Shown piece by piece: positions 9,156 to 50,145 of a stretch of DNA of 64,000 bases. Source of the DNA: Crossaster papposus (lineage: Eukaryota; Echinodermata; Asteroidea; Velatida; Solasteridae); the NCBI GenBank assembly GCA_037893245.1, contig JBAIAA010000738.1, forward strand, positions 248,001-312,000, given 5' to 3'. Made by a program: the position numbers and the translations under genes. Positions within the stretch are counted from its first letter, which is position 1. Every line of letters begins with the position of its first letter. The notes beneath the pieces are model-generated. The model searched no databases. It was not told the origin of the DNA and saw only the letters and a list, made by a program, of their open reading frames with translations.

Positions 9156-9553
9156 CTAATTTTGCCATTCCTGGAGGCCCCCCTCTATCTCCTAACACCC
9201 AGCCCCTTCCCGGGGCATGCTTTCCTTCATGCCCTTATTTGTGGGCGGGGATTGTTAACGTTATAATTTCAGGAAAATCAGAATAAAAAATACTAACTAA
9301 GCATGCCCAGGGCTTTCAATTGCTAATTTTGCCATTCCTGGAGGGCCCCCCCTCTATCTCACTAACACCCAGCCCGAGGCCCCCCTCTATCTCCTAACAC
9401 CCAGCTTTCCCGGGGCATGCTTCCTTCATGCCCTTATTTGTGGGCGGCGGTTGTGTGCACAAACCTATGGCGAATTTGAAACGCGTGTGTTAACGTTATA
9501 ATTTTCAGAAAATCGAAATAAAATACTAACAAAGCATGCCCCGGGTCAAATTG
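9156..9553 (+). repeat. Rearranged, diverged monomer pair (167 + 231 bp)
   Basis: The first unit (9156-9322) lacks 36 bp corresponding to monomer positions 101-136: ATTGT joins directly to TAACG at about 9256. This removes the GTGCAC and ACGCGT palindromes. The following sequence to about 9320 carries many substitutions and small indels. The second unit (9323-9553) contains a partial tandem duplication of monomer positions about 20-49, with copies at about 9341-9375 and 9376-9405, followed by an altered CAGCTTTCCC and further changes to about 9451. Despite this the pair totals exactly 398 bp, so phase is kept. Perfect monomers lie on both sides. It is either an old relic copy that escaped homogenisation or a poorly corrected assembly patch. 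Confidence 0.93.
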
Positions 9554-9808
9554 CTAATTTTGCCATTCCTGGAGGCCCCCCTCTATCTCCTAACACCCAG
9601 CCCCTTCCCGGGGCATGCTTTCCTTCATGCCCTTATTTGTGGGCGGGGATTGTGTGCACAAACCTATGGCGAATTTGAAACGCGTGTGTTAACGTTATAA
9701 TTTTCAGAAAATCGAAATAAAATACTAACAAAGCATGCCCCGGGTCAAATTGCTAATTTTGCCATTCCTGGAGGCCCCCCTCTATCTCCTAACACCCAGC
9801 CCCTTCCC

Positions 9809-22300: not shown

Positions 22301-23610
22301 ATTCCTGGAGGCCCCCCTCTATCTCCTAACACCCAGCCCCTTCCCGGGGCATGCTTTCCTTCATGCCCTTATTTGTGGGCGGGGATTGTGTGCACAAACC
22401 TATGGCGAATTTGAAACGCGTGTGTTAACGTTATAATTTTCAGAAAATCGAAATAAAATACTAACAAAGCATGCCCCGGGTCAAATTGCTAATTTTGCCA
22501 TTCCTGGAGGCCCCCCTCTATCTCCTAACACCCAGCCCCTTCCCGGGGCATGCTTTCCTTCATGCCCTTATTTGTGGGCGGGGATTGTGTGCACAAACCT
22601 ATGGCGAATTTGAAACGCGTGTGTTAACGTTATAATTTTCAGAAAATCGAAATAAAATACTAACAAAGCATGCCCCGGGTCAAATTGCTAATTTTGCCAT
22701 TCCTGGAGGCCCCCCTCTATCTCCTAACACCCAGCCCCTTCCCGGGGCATGCTTTCCTTCATGCCCTTATTTGTGGGCGGGGATTGTGTGCACAAACCTA
22801 TGGCGAATTTGAAACGCGTGTGTTAACGTTATAATTTTCAGAAAATCGAAATAAAATACTAACAAAGCATGCCCCGGGTCAAATTGCTAATTTTGCCATT
22901 CCTGGAGGCCCCCCTCTATCTCCTAACACCCAGCCCCTTCCCGGGGCATGCTTTCCTTCATGCCCTTATTTGTGGGCGGGGATTGTGTGCACAAACCTAT
23001 GGCGAATTTGAAACGCGTGTGTTAACGTTATAATTTTCAGAAAATCGAAATAAAATACTAACAAAGCATGCCCCGGGTCAAATTGCTAATTTTGCCATTC
23101 CTGGAGGCCCCCCTCTATCTCCTAACACCCAGCCCCTTCCCGGGGCATGCTTTCCTTCATGCCCTTATTTGTGGGCGGGGATTGTGTGCACAAACCTATG
23201 GCGAATTTGAAACGCGTGTGTTAACGTTATAATTTTCAGAAAATCGAAATAAAATACTAACAAAGCATGCCCCGGGTCAAATTGCTAATTTTGCCATTCC
23301 TGGAGGCCCCCCTCTATCTCCTAACACCCAGCCCCTTCCCGGGGCATGCTTTCCTTCATGCCCTTATTTGTGGGCGGGGATTGTGTGCACAAACCTATGG
23401 CGAATTTGAAACGCGTGTGTTAACGTTATAATTTTCAGAAAATCGAAATAAAATACTAACAAAGCATGCCCCGGGTCAAATTGCTAATTTTGCCATTCCT
23501 GGAGGCCCCCCTCTATCTCCTAACACCCAGCCCCTTCCCGGGGCATGCTTTCCTTCATGCCCTTATTTGTGGGCGGGGATTGTGTGCACAAACCTATGGC
23601 GAATTTGAAA

Positions 23611-26397
23611 TGCGTGTGTTAACGTTATAATTTTCAGAAAATCGAAATAAAATACTAACAAAGCATGCCCCGGGTCAAATTGCTAATTTTGCCATTCCTG
23701 GAGGCCCCCCTCTATCTCCTAACACCCAGCCCCTTCCCGGGGCATGCTTTCCTTCATGCCCTTATTTGTGGGCGGGGATTGTGTGCACAAACCTATGGCG
23801 AATTTGAAACGCGTGTGTTAACGTTATAATTTTCAGAAAATCGAAATAAAATACTAACAAAGCATGCCCCGGGTCAAATTGCTAATTTTGCCATTCCTGG
23901 AGGCCCCCCTCTATCTCCTAACACCCAGCCCCTTCCCGGGGCATGCTTTCCTTCATGCCCTTATTTGTGGGCGGGGATTGTGTGCACAAACCTATGGCGA
24001 ATTTGAAATGCGTGTGTTAACGTTATAATTTTCAGAAAATCGAAATAAAATACTAACAAAGCATGCCCCGGGTCAAATTGCTAATTTTGCCATTCCTGGA
24101 GGCCCCCCTCTATCTCCTAACACCCAGCCCCTTCCCGGGGCATGCTTTCCTTCATGCCCTTATTTGTGGGCGGGGATTGTGTGCACAAACCTATGGCGAA
24201 TTTGAAACGCGTGTGTTAACGTTATAATTTTCAGAAAATCGAAATAAAATACTAACAAAGCATGCCCCGGGTCAAATTGCTAATTTTGCCATTCCTGGAG
24301 GCCCCCCTCTATCTCCTAACACCCAGCCCCTTCCCGGGGCATGCTTTCCTTCATGCCCTTATTTGTGGGCGGGGATTGTGTGCACAAACCTATGGCGAAT
24401 TTGAAACGCGTGTGTTAACGTTATAATTTTCAGAAAATCGAAATAAAATACTAACAAAGCATGCCCCGGGTCAAATTGCTAATTTTGCCATTCCTGGAGG
24501 CCCCCCTCTATCTCCTAACACCCAGCCCCTTCCCGGGGCATGCTTTCCTTCATGCCCTTATTTGTGGGCGGGGATTGTGTGCACAAACCTATGGCGAATT
24601 TGAAACGCGTGTGTTAACGTTATAATTTTCAGAAAATCGAAATAAAATACTAACAAAGCATGCCCCGGGTCAAATTGCTAATTTTGCCATTCCTGGAGGC
24701 CCCCCTCTATCTCCTAACACCCAGCCCCTTCCCGGGGCATGCTTTCCTTCATGCCCTTATTTGTGGGCGGGGATTGTGTGCACAAACCTATGGCGAATTT
24801 GAAACGCGTGTGTTAACGTTATAATTTTCAGAAAATCGAAATAAAATACTAACAAAGCATGCCCCGGGTCAAATTGCTAATTTTGCCATTCCTGGAGGCC
24901 CCCCTCTATCTCCTAACACCCAGCCCCTTCCCGGGGCATGCTTTCCTTCATGCCCTTATTTGTGGGCGGGGATTGTGTGCACAAACCTATGGCGAATTTG
25001 AAATGCGTGTGTTAACGTTATAATTTTCAGAAAATCGAAATAAAATACTAACAAAGCATGCCCCGGGTCAAATTGCTAATTTTGCCATTCCTGGAGGCCC
25101 CCCTCTATCTCCTAACACCCAGCCCCTTCCCGGGGCATGCTTTCCTTCATGCCCTTATTTGTGGGCGGGGATTGTGTGCACAAACCTATGGCGAATTTGA
25201 AACGCGTGTGTTAACGTTATAATTTTCAGAAAATCGAAATAAAATACTAACAAAGCATGCCCCGGGTCAAATTGCTAATTTTGCCATTCCTGGAGGCCCC
25301 CCTCTATCTCCTAACACCCAGCCCCTTCCCGGGGCATGCTTTCCTTCATGCCCTTATTTGTGGGCGGGGATTGTGTGCACAAACCTATGGCGAATTTGAA
25401 ATGCGTGTGTTAACGTTATAATTTTCAGAAAATCGAAATAAAATACTAACAAAGCATGCCCCGGGTCAAATTGCTAATTTTGCCATTCCTGGAGGCCCCC
25501 CTCTATCTCCTAACACCCAGCCCCTTCCCGGGGCATGCTTTCCTTCATGCCCTTATTTGTGGGCGGGGATTGTGTGCACAAACCTATGGCGAATTTGAAA
25601 CGCGTGTGTTAACGTTATAATTTTCAGAAAATCGAAATAAAATACTAACAAAGCATGCCCCGGGTCAAATTGCTAATTTTGCCATTCCTGGAGGCCCCCC
25701 TCTATCTCCTAACACCCAGCCCCTTCCCGGGGCATGCTTTCCTTCATGCCCTTATTTGTGGGCGGGGATTGTGTGCACAAACCTATGGCGAATTTGAAAC
25801 GCGTGTGTTAACGTTATAATTTTCAGAAAATCGAAATAAAATACTAACAAAGCATGCCCCGGGTCAAATTGCTAATTTTGCCATTCCTGGAGGCCCCCCT
25901 CTATCTCCTAACACCCAGCCCCTTCCCGGGGCATGCTTTCCTTCATGCCCTTATTTGTGGGCGGGGATTGTGTGCACAAACCTATGGCGAATTTGAAATG
26001 CGTGTGTTAACGTTATAATTTTCAGAAAATCGAAATAAAATACTAACAAAGCATGCCCCGGGTCAAATTGCTAATTTTGCCATTCCTGGAGGCCCCCCTC
26101 TATCTCCTAACACCCAGCCCCTTCCCGGGGCATGCTTTCCTTCATGCCCTTATTTGTGGGCGGGGATTGTGTGCACAAACCTATGGCGAATTTGAAACGC
26201 GTGTGTTAACGTTATAATTTTCAGAAAATCGAAATAAAATACTAACAAAGCATGCCCCGGGTCAAATTGCTAATTTTGCCATTCCTGGAGGCCCCCCTCT
26301 ATCTCCTAACACCCAGCCCCTTCCCGGGGCATGCTTTCCTTCATGCCCTTATTTGTGGGCGGGGATTGTGTGCACAAACCTATGGCGAATTTGAAAT
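23611..26397 (+). repeat. Block with recurring C-to-T variant (AAATGCG)
   Basis: Six monomers carry AAATGCG instead of AAACGCG (monomer position 128), with T at 23611, 24009, 25004, 25402, 25999 and 26397. Spacings are 398, 995, 398, 597 and 398 bp: exactly 2, 5, 2, 3 and 2 monomers. The intervening copies have C. The change removes one CpG and the ACGCGT palindrome. The T-C-T triplet of monomers therefore occurs three times, offset by 7 and then 5 monomers, which looks like segmental copying in the array. No such T was seen elsewhere in either arm. Confidence 0.93.
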
Positions 26398-27662
26398 GCG
26401 TGTGTTAACGTTATAATTTTCAGAAAATCGAAATAAAATACTAACAAAGCATGCCCCGGGTCAAATTGCTAATTTTGCCATTCCTGGAGGCCCCCCTCTA
26501 TCTCCTAACACCCAGCCCCTTCCCGGGGCATGCTTTCCTTCATGCCCTTATTTGTGGGCGGGGATTGTGTGCACAAACCTATGGCGAATTTGAAACGCGT
26601 GTGTTAACGTTATAATTTTCAGAAAATCGAAATAAAATACTAACAAAGCATGCCCCGGGTCAAATTGCTAATTTTGCCATTCCTGGAGGCCCCCCTCTAT
26701 CTCCTAACACCCAGCCCCTTCCCGGGGCATGCTTTCCTTCATGCCCTTATTTGTGGGCGGGGATTGTGTGCACAAACCTATGGCGAATTTGAAACGCGTG
26801 TGTTAACGTTATAATTTTCAGAAAATCGAAATAAAATACTAACAAAGCATGCCCCGGGTCAAATTGCTAATTTTGCCATTCCTGGAGGCCCCCCTCTATC
26901 TCCTAACACCCAGCCCCTTCCCGGGGCATGCTTTCCTTCATGCCCTTATTTGTGGGCGGGGATTGTGTGCACAAACCTATGGCGAATTTGAAACGCGTGT
27001 GTTAACGTTATAATTTTCAGAAAATCGAAATAAAATACTAACAAAGCATGCCCCGGGTCAAATTGCTAATTTTGCCATTCCTGGAGGCCCCCCTCTATCT
27101 CCTAACACCCAGCCCCTTCCCGGGGCATGCTTTCCTTCATGCCCTTATTTGTGGGCGGGGATTGTGTGCACAAACCTATGGCGAATTTGAAACGCGTGTG
27201 TTAACGTTATAATTTTCAGAAAATCGAAATAAAATACTAACAAAGCATGCCCCGGGTCAAATTGCTAATTTTGCCATTCCTGGAGGCCCCCCTCTATCTC
27301 CTAACACCCAGCCCCTTCCCGGGGCATGCTTTCCTTCATGCCCTTATTTGTGGGCGGGGATTGTGTGCACAAACCTATGGCGAATTTGAAACGCGTGTGT
27401 TAACGTTATAATTTTCAGAAAATCGAAATAAAATACTAACAAAGCATGCCCCGGGTCAAATTGCTAATTTTGCCATTCCTGGAGGCCCCCCTCTATCTCC
27501 TAACACCCAGCCCCTTCCCGGGGCATGCTTTCCTTCATGCCCTTATTTGTGGGCGGGGATTGTGTGCACAAACCTATGGCGAATTTGAAACGCGTGTGTT
27601 AACGTTATAATTTTCAGAAAATCGAAATAAAATACTAACAAAGCATGCCCCGGGTCAAATTG

Positions 27663-27778
27663 CTAATTTTGCCATTCCTGGAGGCCCCCCTCTATCTCCT
27701 AACACCCAGGAAAGCATGCCCCGGGAAGGGGCTGGGTGTTAGGAGATAGAGGGGGGCCTCCAGGAACGGCAAAATTAG
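27663..27778. other. Inversion (fold-back) junction of the array
   Basis: Forward monomer sequence ends at 27709 (monomer position 47) and reverse-complement sequence starts at 27710 (position 69). Bases AG at 27708-27709 fit both sides, so the join has 2 bp of microhomology. Positions 47 and below exist on both sides, giving a dyad whose arms abut a 22-bp unpaired spacer at 27710-27731; the spacer holds one complete 15-bp inverted-repeat arm. The near arms pair perfectly for 35 bp, then C27767 (consensus T) faces A27674. The switch occurs within the array and no foreign sequence lies at the join. Confidence 0.97.
27767..27767 (-). other. Private variant in first monomer after inversion
   Basis: GGAACGGC replaces GGAATGGC, 58 bp after the join. 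It was not seen in other monomers. It is one of the few marks that distinguish the two arms of the dyad near the junction. Confidence 0.9.
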
Positions 27779-48400: not shown

Positions 48401-48944
48401 AAAGCATGCCCCGGGAAGGGGCTGGGTGTTAGGAGATAGAGGGGGGCCTCCAGGAATGGCAAAATTAGCAATTTGACCCGGGGCATGCTTTGTTAGTATT
48501 TTATTTCGATTTTCTGAAAATTATAACGTTAACACACGCGTTTCAAATTCGCCATAGGTTTGTGCACACAATCCCCGCCCACAAATAAGGGCATGAAGGA
48601 AAGCATGCCCCGGGAAGGGGCTGGGTGTTAGGAGATAGAGGGGGGCCTCCAGGAATGGCAAAATTAGCAATTTGACCCGGGGCATGCTTTGTTAGTATTT
48701 TATTTCGATTTTCTGAAAATTATAACGTTAACACACGCGTTTCAAATTCGCCATAGGTTTGTGCACACAATCCCCGCCCACAAATAAGGGCATGAAGGAA
48801 AGCATGCCCCGGGAAGGGGCTGGGTGTTAGGAGATAGAGGGGGGCCTCCAGGAATGGCAAAATTAGCAATTTGACCCGGGGCATGCTTTGTTAGTATTTT
48901 ATTTCGATTTTCTGAAAATTATAACGTTAACACACGCGTTTCAA

Positions 48945-50145
48945 AAAACCATAGGTTTAGTGCACACAATCCCCGCCCACAAATAAGGGCATGAAGGAAA
49001 GCATGCCCCGGGAAGGGGCTGGGTGTTAGGAAGATAGAGGGGGGCCTCCAGGAATGCAAAATTAGCAATTTGACCCCGGGGCATGCTTTGTTAGTATTTT
49101 ATTTCGATTTTCTGAAAATTATAACGTTAAACACACGCGTTTCAAATTCGCAATAGGTTTGTGCACACAATCCCCGCCCACAAATAAGGGCATGAAGGAA
49201 AGCATGCCCCGGGAAGAGGGCCTGGGTGTTGGGAGATAGAGGGGGGCCTCCAGGAATGGCAAAATTAGCAATTTGACCCGGGGCATGCTTTGTTAGTATT
49301 TTATTTCGATTTTCTGAAATTATAACGTTAACACACGCGTTTCAAATTCGCCATAGGTTTGTGCACACAATCCCCGCCCACAAATAAGGGCATGAAGGAA
49401 AGCATGCCCCGGGAAGGGGCTGGGTGTTAGGAGATAGAGGGGGGCCTCCAGGAATGGCAAAATTAGCAATTTGACCCGGGGCAATGCTTTGTTAGTATTT
49501 TATTTCGATTTTCTGAAAATTATAACGTTAACACACGCGTTTCAAATTCGCAATAGGTTTGTGCACACAATCCCCGCCCACAAATAAGGGCATGAAGGAA
49601 AGCATGCCCCGGGAAGGGGCTGGGGTGTTAGAGATAGAGGGGGGCCTCCAGGAATGGCAAATTTAGCAATTTGACCCGGGGCATGCTTTGTTAGTATTTT
49701 ATTTCGATTTTCTGAAAATTATAACGTTAACACACGCGTTTCAAATTCGCCATAGGTTTGTGCACACAATCCCCGCCCACAAATAAGGGCATGAAGGAAA
49801 GCATGCCCCGGGAAGGGGCTGGGTGTTAGGAGATAGAGGGGGGCCTCCAGGAATGGCAAAATTAGCAATTTGACCCGGGGCATGCTTTGTTAGTATTTTA
49901 TTTCGATTTTCTGAAATTATAACGTTAACACACGCGTTTCAAATTCGCAATAGGTTTGTGCACACAATCCCCGCCCACAAATAAGGGCATGAAGGAAAGC
50001 ATGCCACGGGAAGGGGCTGGGTGTTAGGAGATAGAGGGGGGCCTCCAGGAATGGCAAAATTAGCAATTTGACCCGGGGCATGCTTTGTTAGTATTTTATT
50101 TCGATTTTCTGAAAATTATAACGTTAACACACGCGTTTCAAATTT
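48945..50145 (-). repeat. Indel-rich block of about six diverged monomers
   Basis: Differences include a replaced stretch at 48945-48950, extra bases at about 48959, 49031, 49075, 49131 and 49483, lost bases at about 49056, 49317 and 49914, a 2-bp gain around 49207-49222, a compensated pair at 49622-49631, and substitutions at 49152, 49552, 49949 (all C>A, CGCAATAGG), 49662, 50006 and 50145. Net length change is +3, matching the phase shift. CGCAATAGG recurs about every second monomer (400 and 397 bp apart), and the lost A in CTGAAATT recurs exactly three monomers apart (597 bp). Sharing between copies argues for real sequence; the scatter of homopolymer indels argues for residual read error. 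Confidence 0.92.

Follow-up and report, generated by a model that had tools for sequence, protein, structure and literature searches.

A head-to-head orientation switch in a 199-bp satellite of Crossaster papposus, carried by two contigs

Orientation switches within satellite arrays have been described in human and mouse. In human, the active alpha satellite array of chromosome 1 contains a 1.7-Mb inversion, and more than 200 inversions have been reported in the HSat3 (chromosome 9) and beta-satellite arrays (PMC10813616); the chromosome 1 inversion is also given in PMC9549924. In mouse, directional switches were reported in 1.7% of the minor-satellite arrays and in 1.9% of the major-satellite arrays, which the authors take as suggesting inversions (PMC10880262). 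Primate centromeres have been modelled as a very homogeneous young layer lying beside more diverged layers (PMC9549924). As far as the available portions of two further sources go, they contain nothing comparable to the switch presented here: inversions made mainly of satellites were filtered out of the study in PMC12597820, and PMC10264360 describes no similar case. Among the literature matches listed there was no recognisable description of an echinoderm satellite of 199-bp size or of its orientation.

The window analysed here is the whole stretch of 64,000 nucleotides taken from the forward strand of contig C738 (C738:248001-312000), in an assembly of C. papposus of 1.02 Gb and 1,841 contigs.

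Structure of the join

The whole window consists of one 199-bp satellite in two opposite orientations. The same monomer is present on both sides of the join, its orientation is reversed, and nothing unrelated lies between the two arrays. The features of the region, in window positions, are the following:

1 to 27709, forward strand: forward 199-bp satellite array, continuing leftward on C738
27708 to 64000, reverse strand: reverse 199-bp satellite array, continuing rightward on C738 and ending between 362.7 and 370 kb of the contig
27708 to 27709, no strand: AG, the 2-bp overlap of the arms (unit positions 13-14 forward, 38-37 reverse)
27710 to 27731, no strand: unpaired spacer of 22 bp at the palindrome centre, the reverse complement of unit positions 15-36
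27711 to 27725, reverse strand: AAAGCATGCCCCGGG, an arm of the monomer's internal inverted repeat, within the spacer
within 23517 to 26501, forward strand: C95T in left monomers 6, 8, 11, 13, 18 and 20, common to contig C988 and without a mirror on the right arm
27767, reverse strand: A178G, found in right monomer 1 but not in left monomer 1, and common to C988

The last base of the left arm, 27709, corresponds to unit position 14, and 27708, taken as the first base of the right arm, corresponds to unit position 38, with no inserted base at 27708-27709. The symmetry centre falls between 27720 and 27721, leaving 11 unpaired bases on either side. Beyond the spacer, the arms pair over the first 3.85 kb with 10 mismatches, and then an indel shifts the register. 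The internal inverted repeat of the monomer is 15 bp long and occupies unit positions 21-35 and 144-158.

This anatomy bears out what a sequence-only reading of the window had described, namely about 27.7 kb of forward monomers abutting at least 36.3 kb of reverse monomers, with a 22-bp unpaired spacer, a 2-bp AG microhomology and no insertion. The same reading had held that no other base order in the window was unique. This was wrong, since 28 separate clusters of 31-mers are single-copy in the window and the join is one of these 28.

Both arms of the window yield an identical 199-base consensus (obtained from 134 left and 171 right monomers). The left arm contains 124 monomers equal to the consensus out of 138, the other 14 being different, and the right arm contains 158 out of 180, with 22 that differ. 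Small groups of rearranged or multiply altered monomers were observed at 9189-9590 and 48834-50031 of the window, the arrays being otherwise uniform.

Regarding the features of the join itself, 16.8% of random blunt joins are expected to overlap by at least 2 bp over the 199 x 199 possible combinations of unit positions, a share that drops to 6.6% when identical junctions are counted a single time, and the chance of a spacer of 22 or less among 199 offsets is about 11% by simple arithmetic. The overlap (P about 0.17) and the spacer (about 0.11) are both near chance, and neither of them alone points to a mechanism or proves a fold-back. The near-perfect palindrome provides no extra evidence either, because any orientation switch in so uniform an array makes one.

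Two copies of the switch and their position in the young layer

The join is present on a second contig, C988. A 24-base junction query gave two matches assembly-wide (allowing up to 2 mismatches), at C738:275698 and C988:59934, on the same strand, and a 251-base query over the join gave two full-length matches with 100% identity in the assembly. Around the join the two contigs show no difference for about 4.3 kb, and their first differences appear within 0.9 kb to the right and 3.4 kb to the left. The comparison of the left flanks showed 5 mismatches and no gaps over 6.7 kb, and that of the right flanks 9 mismatches and 7 gaps over 6 kb. Similar closeness was found in the contig pair C1672/C808 (2 mismatches in 3,143 bases), while the pair C1103/C969 is less close (98.6%).

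All seven flanking variants (six C95T and one A178G) are present in both C738 and C988. Neither variant is private to the join, as A178G has 38 exact matches genome-wide and C95T has 482. Among the changes private to C988, left monomer 17 carries C139A and right monomer 21 has an insertion of 2 bases. Furthermore, C988 carries a mobile-element-like insertion of about 1.5 kb (C988:51463-53166) in left monomer 34, about 6.8 kb from the join, without a counterpart at the matching place of C738. Since the flanking variants are common to both contigs and private changes are found besides them, the join is most likely older than the separation of the two copies. It constitutes a base-resolved marker in a near-uniform satellite, available in two slightly diverged copies, which lets the homogenisation of two opposite orientations be studied.

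No mirrored variants were found across the join over the 138 monomer pairs compared, nor at offsets from -3 to +3. The lack of mirroring argues against a fold-back read as the source of the join, as well as against any mirror copy that arose after the shared variants, and for this reason the join is not classified here as a fold-back inverted duplication. In the 20 monomers nearest the join, an approximate count gives 7 asymmetric sites common to both contigs, six of them being the same variant, and roughly as many private differences acquired since the copies parted, so that an older mirror copy is compatible with the data.

To place the switch in its surroundings, two sets of 20 samples each were taken from C738 besides the window, one with pieces no longer than 10 kb and the other with pieces of 221 bases. 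The samples from 1 to 57.7 kb are reverse satellite, with 87-98% identity to the unit by 10-kb piece. Those at 60-75 kb are tandem repeats with units of 10-11 bp, and the sample at 77.5 kb is non-satellite. From 80,183 to the switch at 275.7 kb every sample is forward satellite, and these samples cover 80-100 kb with short gaps, then 100-110 kb, 150-160 kb and 200-275.7 kb. From the switch, reverse satellite continues until a point between 362.7 and 370 kb, with other sequence beyond. The edge at 80,183 (C738:80000-80220) is a border of the satellite with a dispersed repeat. Of the 40 candidates scored, five other places have an identical border (twice in C891, twice in C538 and once in C239), and therefore this stretch has been copied between arrays.

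Not all of this satellite is equally uniform. The per-monomer counts include monomers of 190 to 208 bases, and the most diverged pieces gave no countable monomer. In the forward array of C738, the pieces at 100-110, 150-160 and 200-210 kb contain no monomer identical to the unit (0/49 in each); their monomers show 3.5-3.9 base differences each and carry A at consensus position 112. From C738:210,020 onwards most monomers are identical to the unit and carry T at position 112, with 48/50, 45/49, 40/44 and 48/49 identical monomers in the next four 10-kb pieces. On the reverse side of the same contig, 144 of the 147 monomers at 310-340 kb are identical, and three of the four 221-base samples at 342.5-362.5 kb show 100% identity, the remaining one, at 347.5 kb, showing 96.4%.

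The samples of C988 to the left of its switch gave 46/49, 50/50 and 49/49 identical monomers, and the piece that includes the insertion and the switch gave 28/41. The young layer of this contig extends to about 79.4 kb, where a diverged reverse layer starts. The border between the old (A112) and the young (T112) types is sharp, both at C738 around 210,020 and at C988 around 79.4 kb. To the right of the switch, the young layer spans at least about 87 kb of C738, as sampled, versus 19.5 kb of C988.

The switch sits inside the youngest layer of near-identical monomers in both copies, and this placement is the most interesting observation of the analysis. Either the switch arose within a layer that was already uniform, or homogenisation worked on both orientations.

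Abundance of the satellite and other orientation switches

A conserved 32-mer of the satellite gave 104,572 matches in the assembly with up to 2 mismatches (52,568 and 52,004 by strand). If each match represents one unit, the satellite amounts to about 20.8 Mb, 2% of the assembly. The T112 type showed 17,291 exact matches. On the grounds of abundance and layering, this satellite is possibly the centromeric one. No CENP-B box pattern, strict or relaxed, was found in the 199-bp consensus, and no telomere repeat (two TTAGGG units) was found in the loci examined for it.

Two observations concern the assembly as a whole. Contig C1841 (16,330 bp) encodes a mitochondrial COX1 with AAA at Asn-like, AGA at Ser-like and TGA at Trp-like positions (table 9), which fits an echinoderm host. 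Apart from this mitochondrial contig, COX1-like genes without internal stops are located at about 2.87 and 5.21 Mb of C8, a contig of more than 5.2 Mb that is possibly a bacterial chromosome within the assembly.

The orientation of the satellite in other contigs was tallied by hand from the strands of the matches listed, and contigs were kept when they had at least two places about 900 bases or more apart. Among these matches, 18 of the 22 contigs present a single orientation, with spans up to about 1.2 Mb (C337), and both orientations were found on four contigs (C30, C738, C988 and C1041). It should be noted that C738 and C988 entered the tally as starting points of the analysis and that thin sampling undercounts switches. 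Outside the 22 contigs, C538 and C891 show one orientation each at two places. In C30, the satellite matches turn from forward to reverse between 536 and 654 kb, which is either a further switch or a second array.

The switch of C1041 goes from reverse to forward and is located at 137,052-137,066 (region 136900-137300). There, the reverse and forward monomers share the 15 bases AAAGCATGCCCCGGG, which are the unit's own inverted repeat. This join has 1 exact match in the assembly and 4 more with 2 mismatches, of which three look like ordinary monomers lengthened by one base. Its head-to-head counterpart has no exact match among the 100 of 517 matches listed (up to 2 mismatches), which comprise 5 with 1 mismatch (4 in C337 and 1 in C590) and 95 with 2 mismatches that are like ordinary monomer variants. 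Two distinct switches have been read to the base, the shared sequence being 2 bp in C738/C988 and 15 bp in C1041.

Origin of the switch and comparison with known systems

The sequence-only reading had proposed a template-switch fold-back or an inversion. A genuine orientation switch is supported by the present data, but the join does not single out a specific mechanism: the spacer and the microhomology are within chance, no variants are mirrored and the reciprocal junction of a clean inversion is not found.

The explanation we prefer, with moderate confidence, is that the join is a real inherited head-to-head switch, which would have been made once by the joining of satellite ends sharing little or no sequence (2 bp) and is now present in C738 and C988. 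A break, or a collapsed or stalled fork, could have occurred within the satellite array, and the broken end could have been joined by short homology, or the strand could have switched template, onto the opposite strand nearby in a one-sided event. Later array turnover would have made the two arms differ, and the join would have been carried into both assembled copies. Short-homology joining is seen at the second switch too, with 15 bp in C1041. The repair pathway and the one-sided form outlined here would be the most likely ones; the leaning to a one-sided event is due to the fact that a clean reciprocal inversion junction was not found and that un-inverting the block would split the young layer. 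The switch can be explained without assuming a function. Against this explanation, the overlap and the spacer are not significant, and a fold-back that made a mirror copy would leave mirrored variants unless it were older than the shared ones.

A two-break inversion is possible, albeit doubtful. A block of the uniform array, for instance from about 60-80 kb of C738 to 275.7 kb, would have been flipped, and a reverse-to-forward change would be found at its other end. The order of C738 fits this proposal, as it consists of reverse satellite (1-57.7 kb), other repeats (60-77.7 kb), forward satellite (from 80.18 kb) and reverse satellite again (from 275.7 kb to at least 362.7 kb), and unmirrored arms are what a two-break inversion predicts. 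However, the clean reciprocal junction expected from it gave 0 matches assembly-wide (up to 2 mismatches over 28 bases, a search that a decayed, lost or unassembled partner would escape). Moreover, the far end is formed by the 10/11-bp minisatellite and the dispersed repeat and not by a clean join, and turning the block back as far as 58-80 kb would cut in two the young layer starting at C738:210,020.

It is unlikely that the switch was the seed of the young layer. In this reading, the latest satellite expansion on this chromosome would have proceeded via an inverted intermediate (e.g. fold-back or double-rolling-circle-like replication) and laid down identical monomers both ways around the switch. 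If this were true, the switch would be a cause of array growth instead of a by-product, and it would indicate that satellites can expand through an inverted intermediate.

An artefact, either a chimeric fold-back read or a mis-joined path in the assembly graph, is improbable. Satellite arrays are difficult to assemble, and one shared stretch of the graph could serve both contigs over the 4.3 kb in which they are identical. Nevertheless, the arms are not mirrored, contrary to what a chimeric fold-back read would give, and the join is carried by two contigs that differ. Their differences at 0.9 kb to the right and 3.4 kb to the left imply that each join would need its own spanning reads if the reads are longer than these distances, and the insertion about 6.8 kb away is present in C988 alone.

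Finally, it is very improbable that the C738 join comes directly from recombination within the 15-bp inverted repeat internal to the monomer, later masked by a small change: the spacer does hold one arm of the repeat (27711-27725) and C1041 switches exactly there, but the breakpoints do not fit, as the left arm stops short of the repeat, at unit position 14, and the right arm runs past it to unit positions 36-38, and the head-to-head product of such recombination has no exact match among the matches listed.

Returning to the preferred explanation of an inherited switch, orientation switches are already known from human and mouse satellites, and the case of C738 mostly extends the phenomenon to an echinoderm. 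The human arrays (alpha satellite of chromosome 1, HSat3 of chromosome 9 and beta satellite) likewise contain satellite stretches in opposite orientation, but they belong to another repeat and another phylum, and the likeness lies in the orientation (PMC10813616). Compared with the switches counted in mouse (PMC10880262), that of C738 has been read to the base, occurs on both C738 and C988 and is located within the youngest layer. Concerning the layered centromeres of primates, C738 shows a similar layer edge at 210,020 (PMC9549924). In primate arrays, however, structural disorder, including inversions, is least in the homogeneous arrays (PMC9549924), whereas in C. papposus the switch lies inside the most homogeneous layer.
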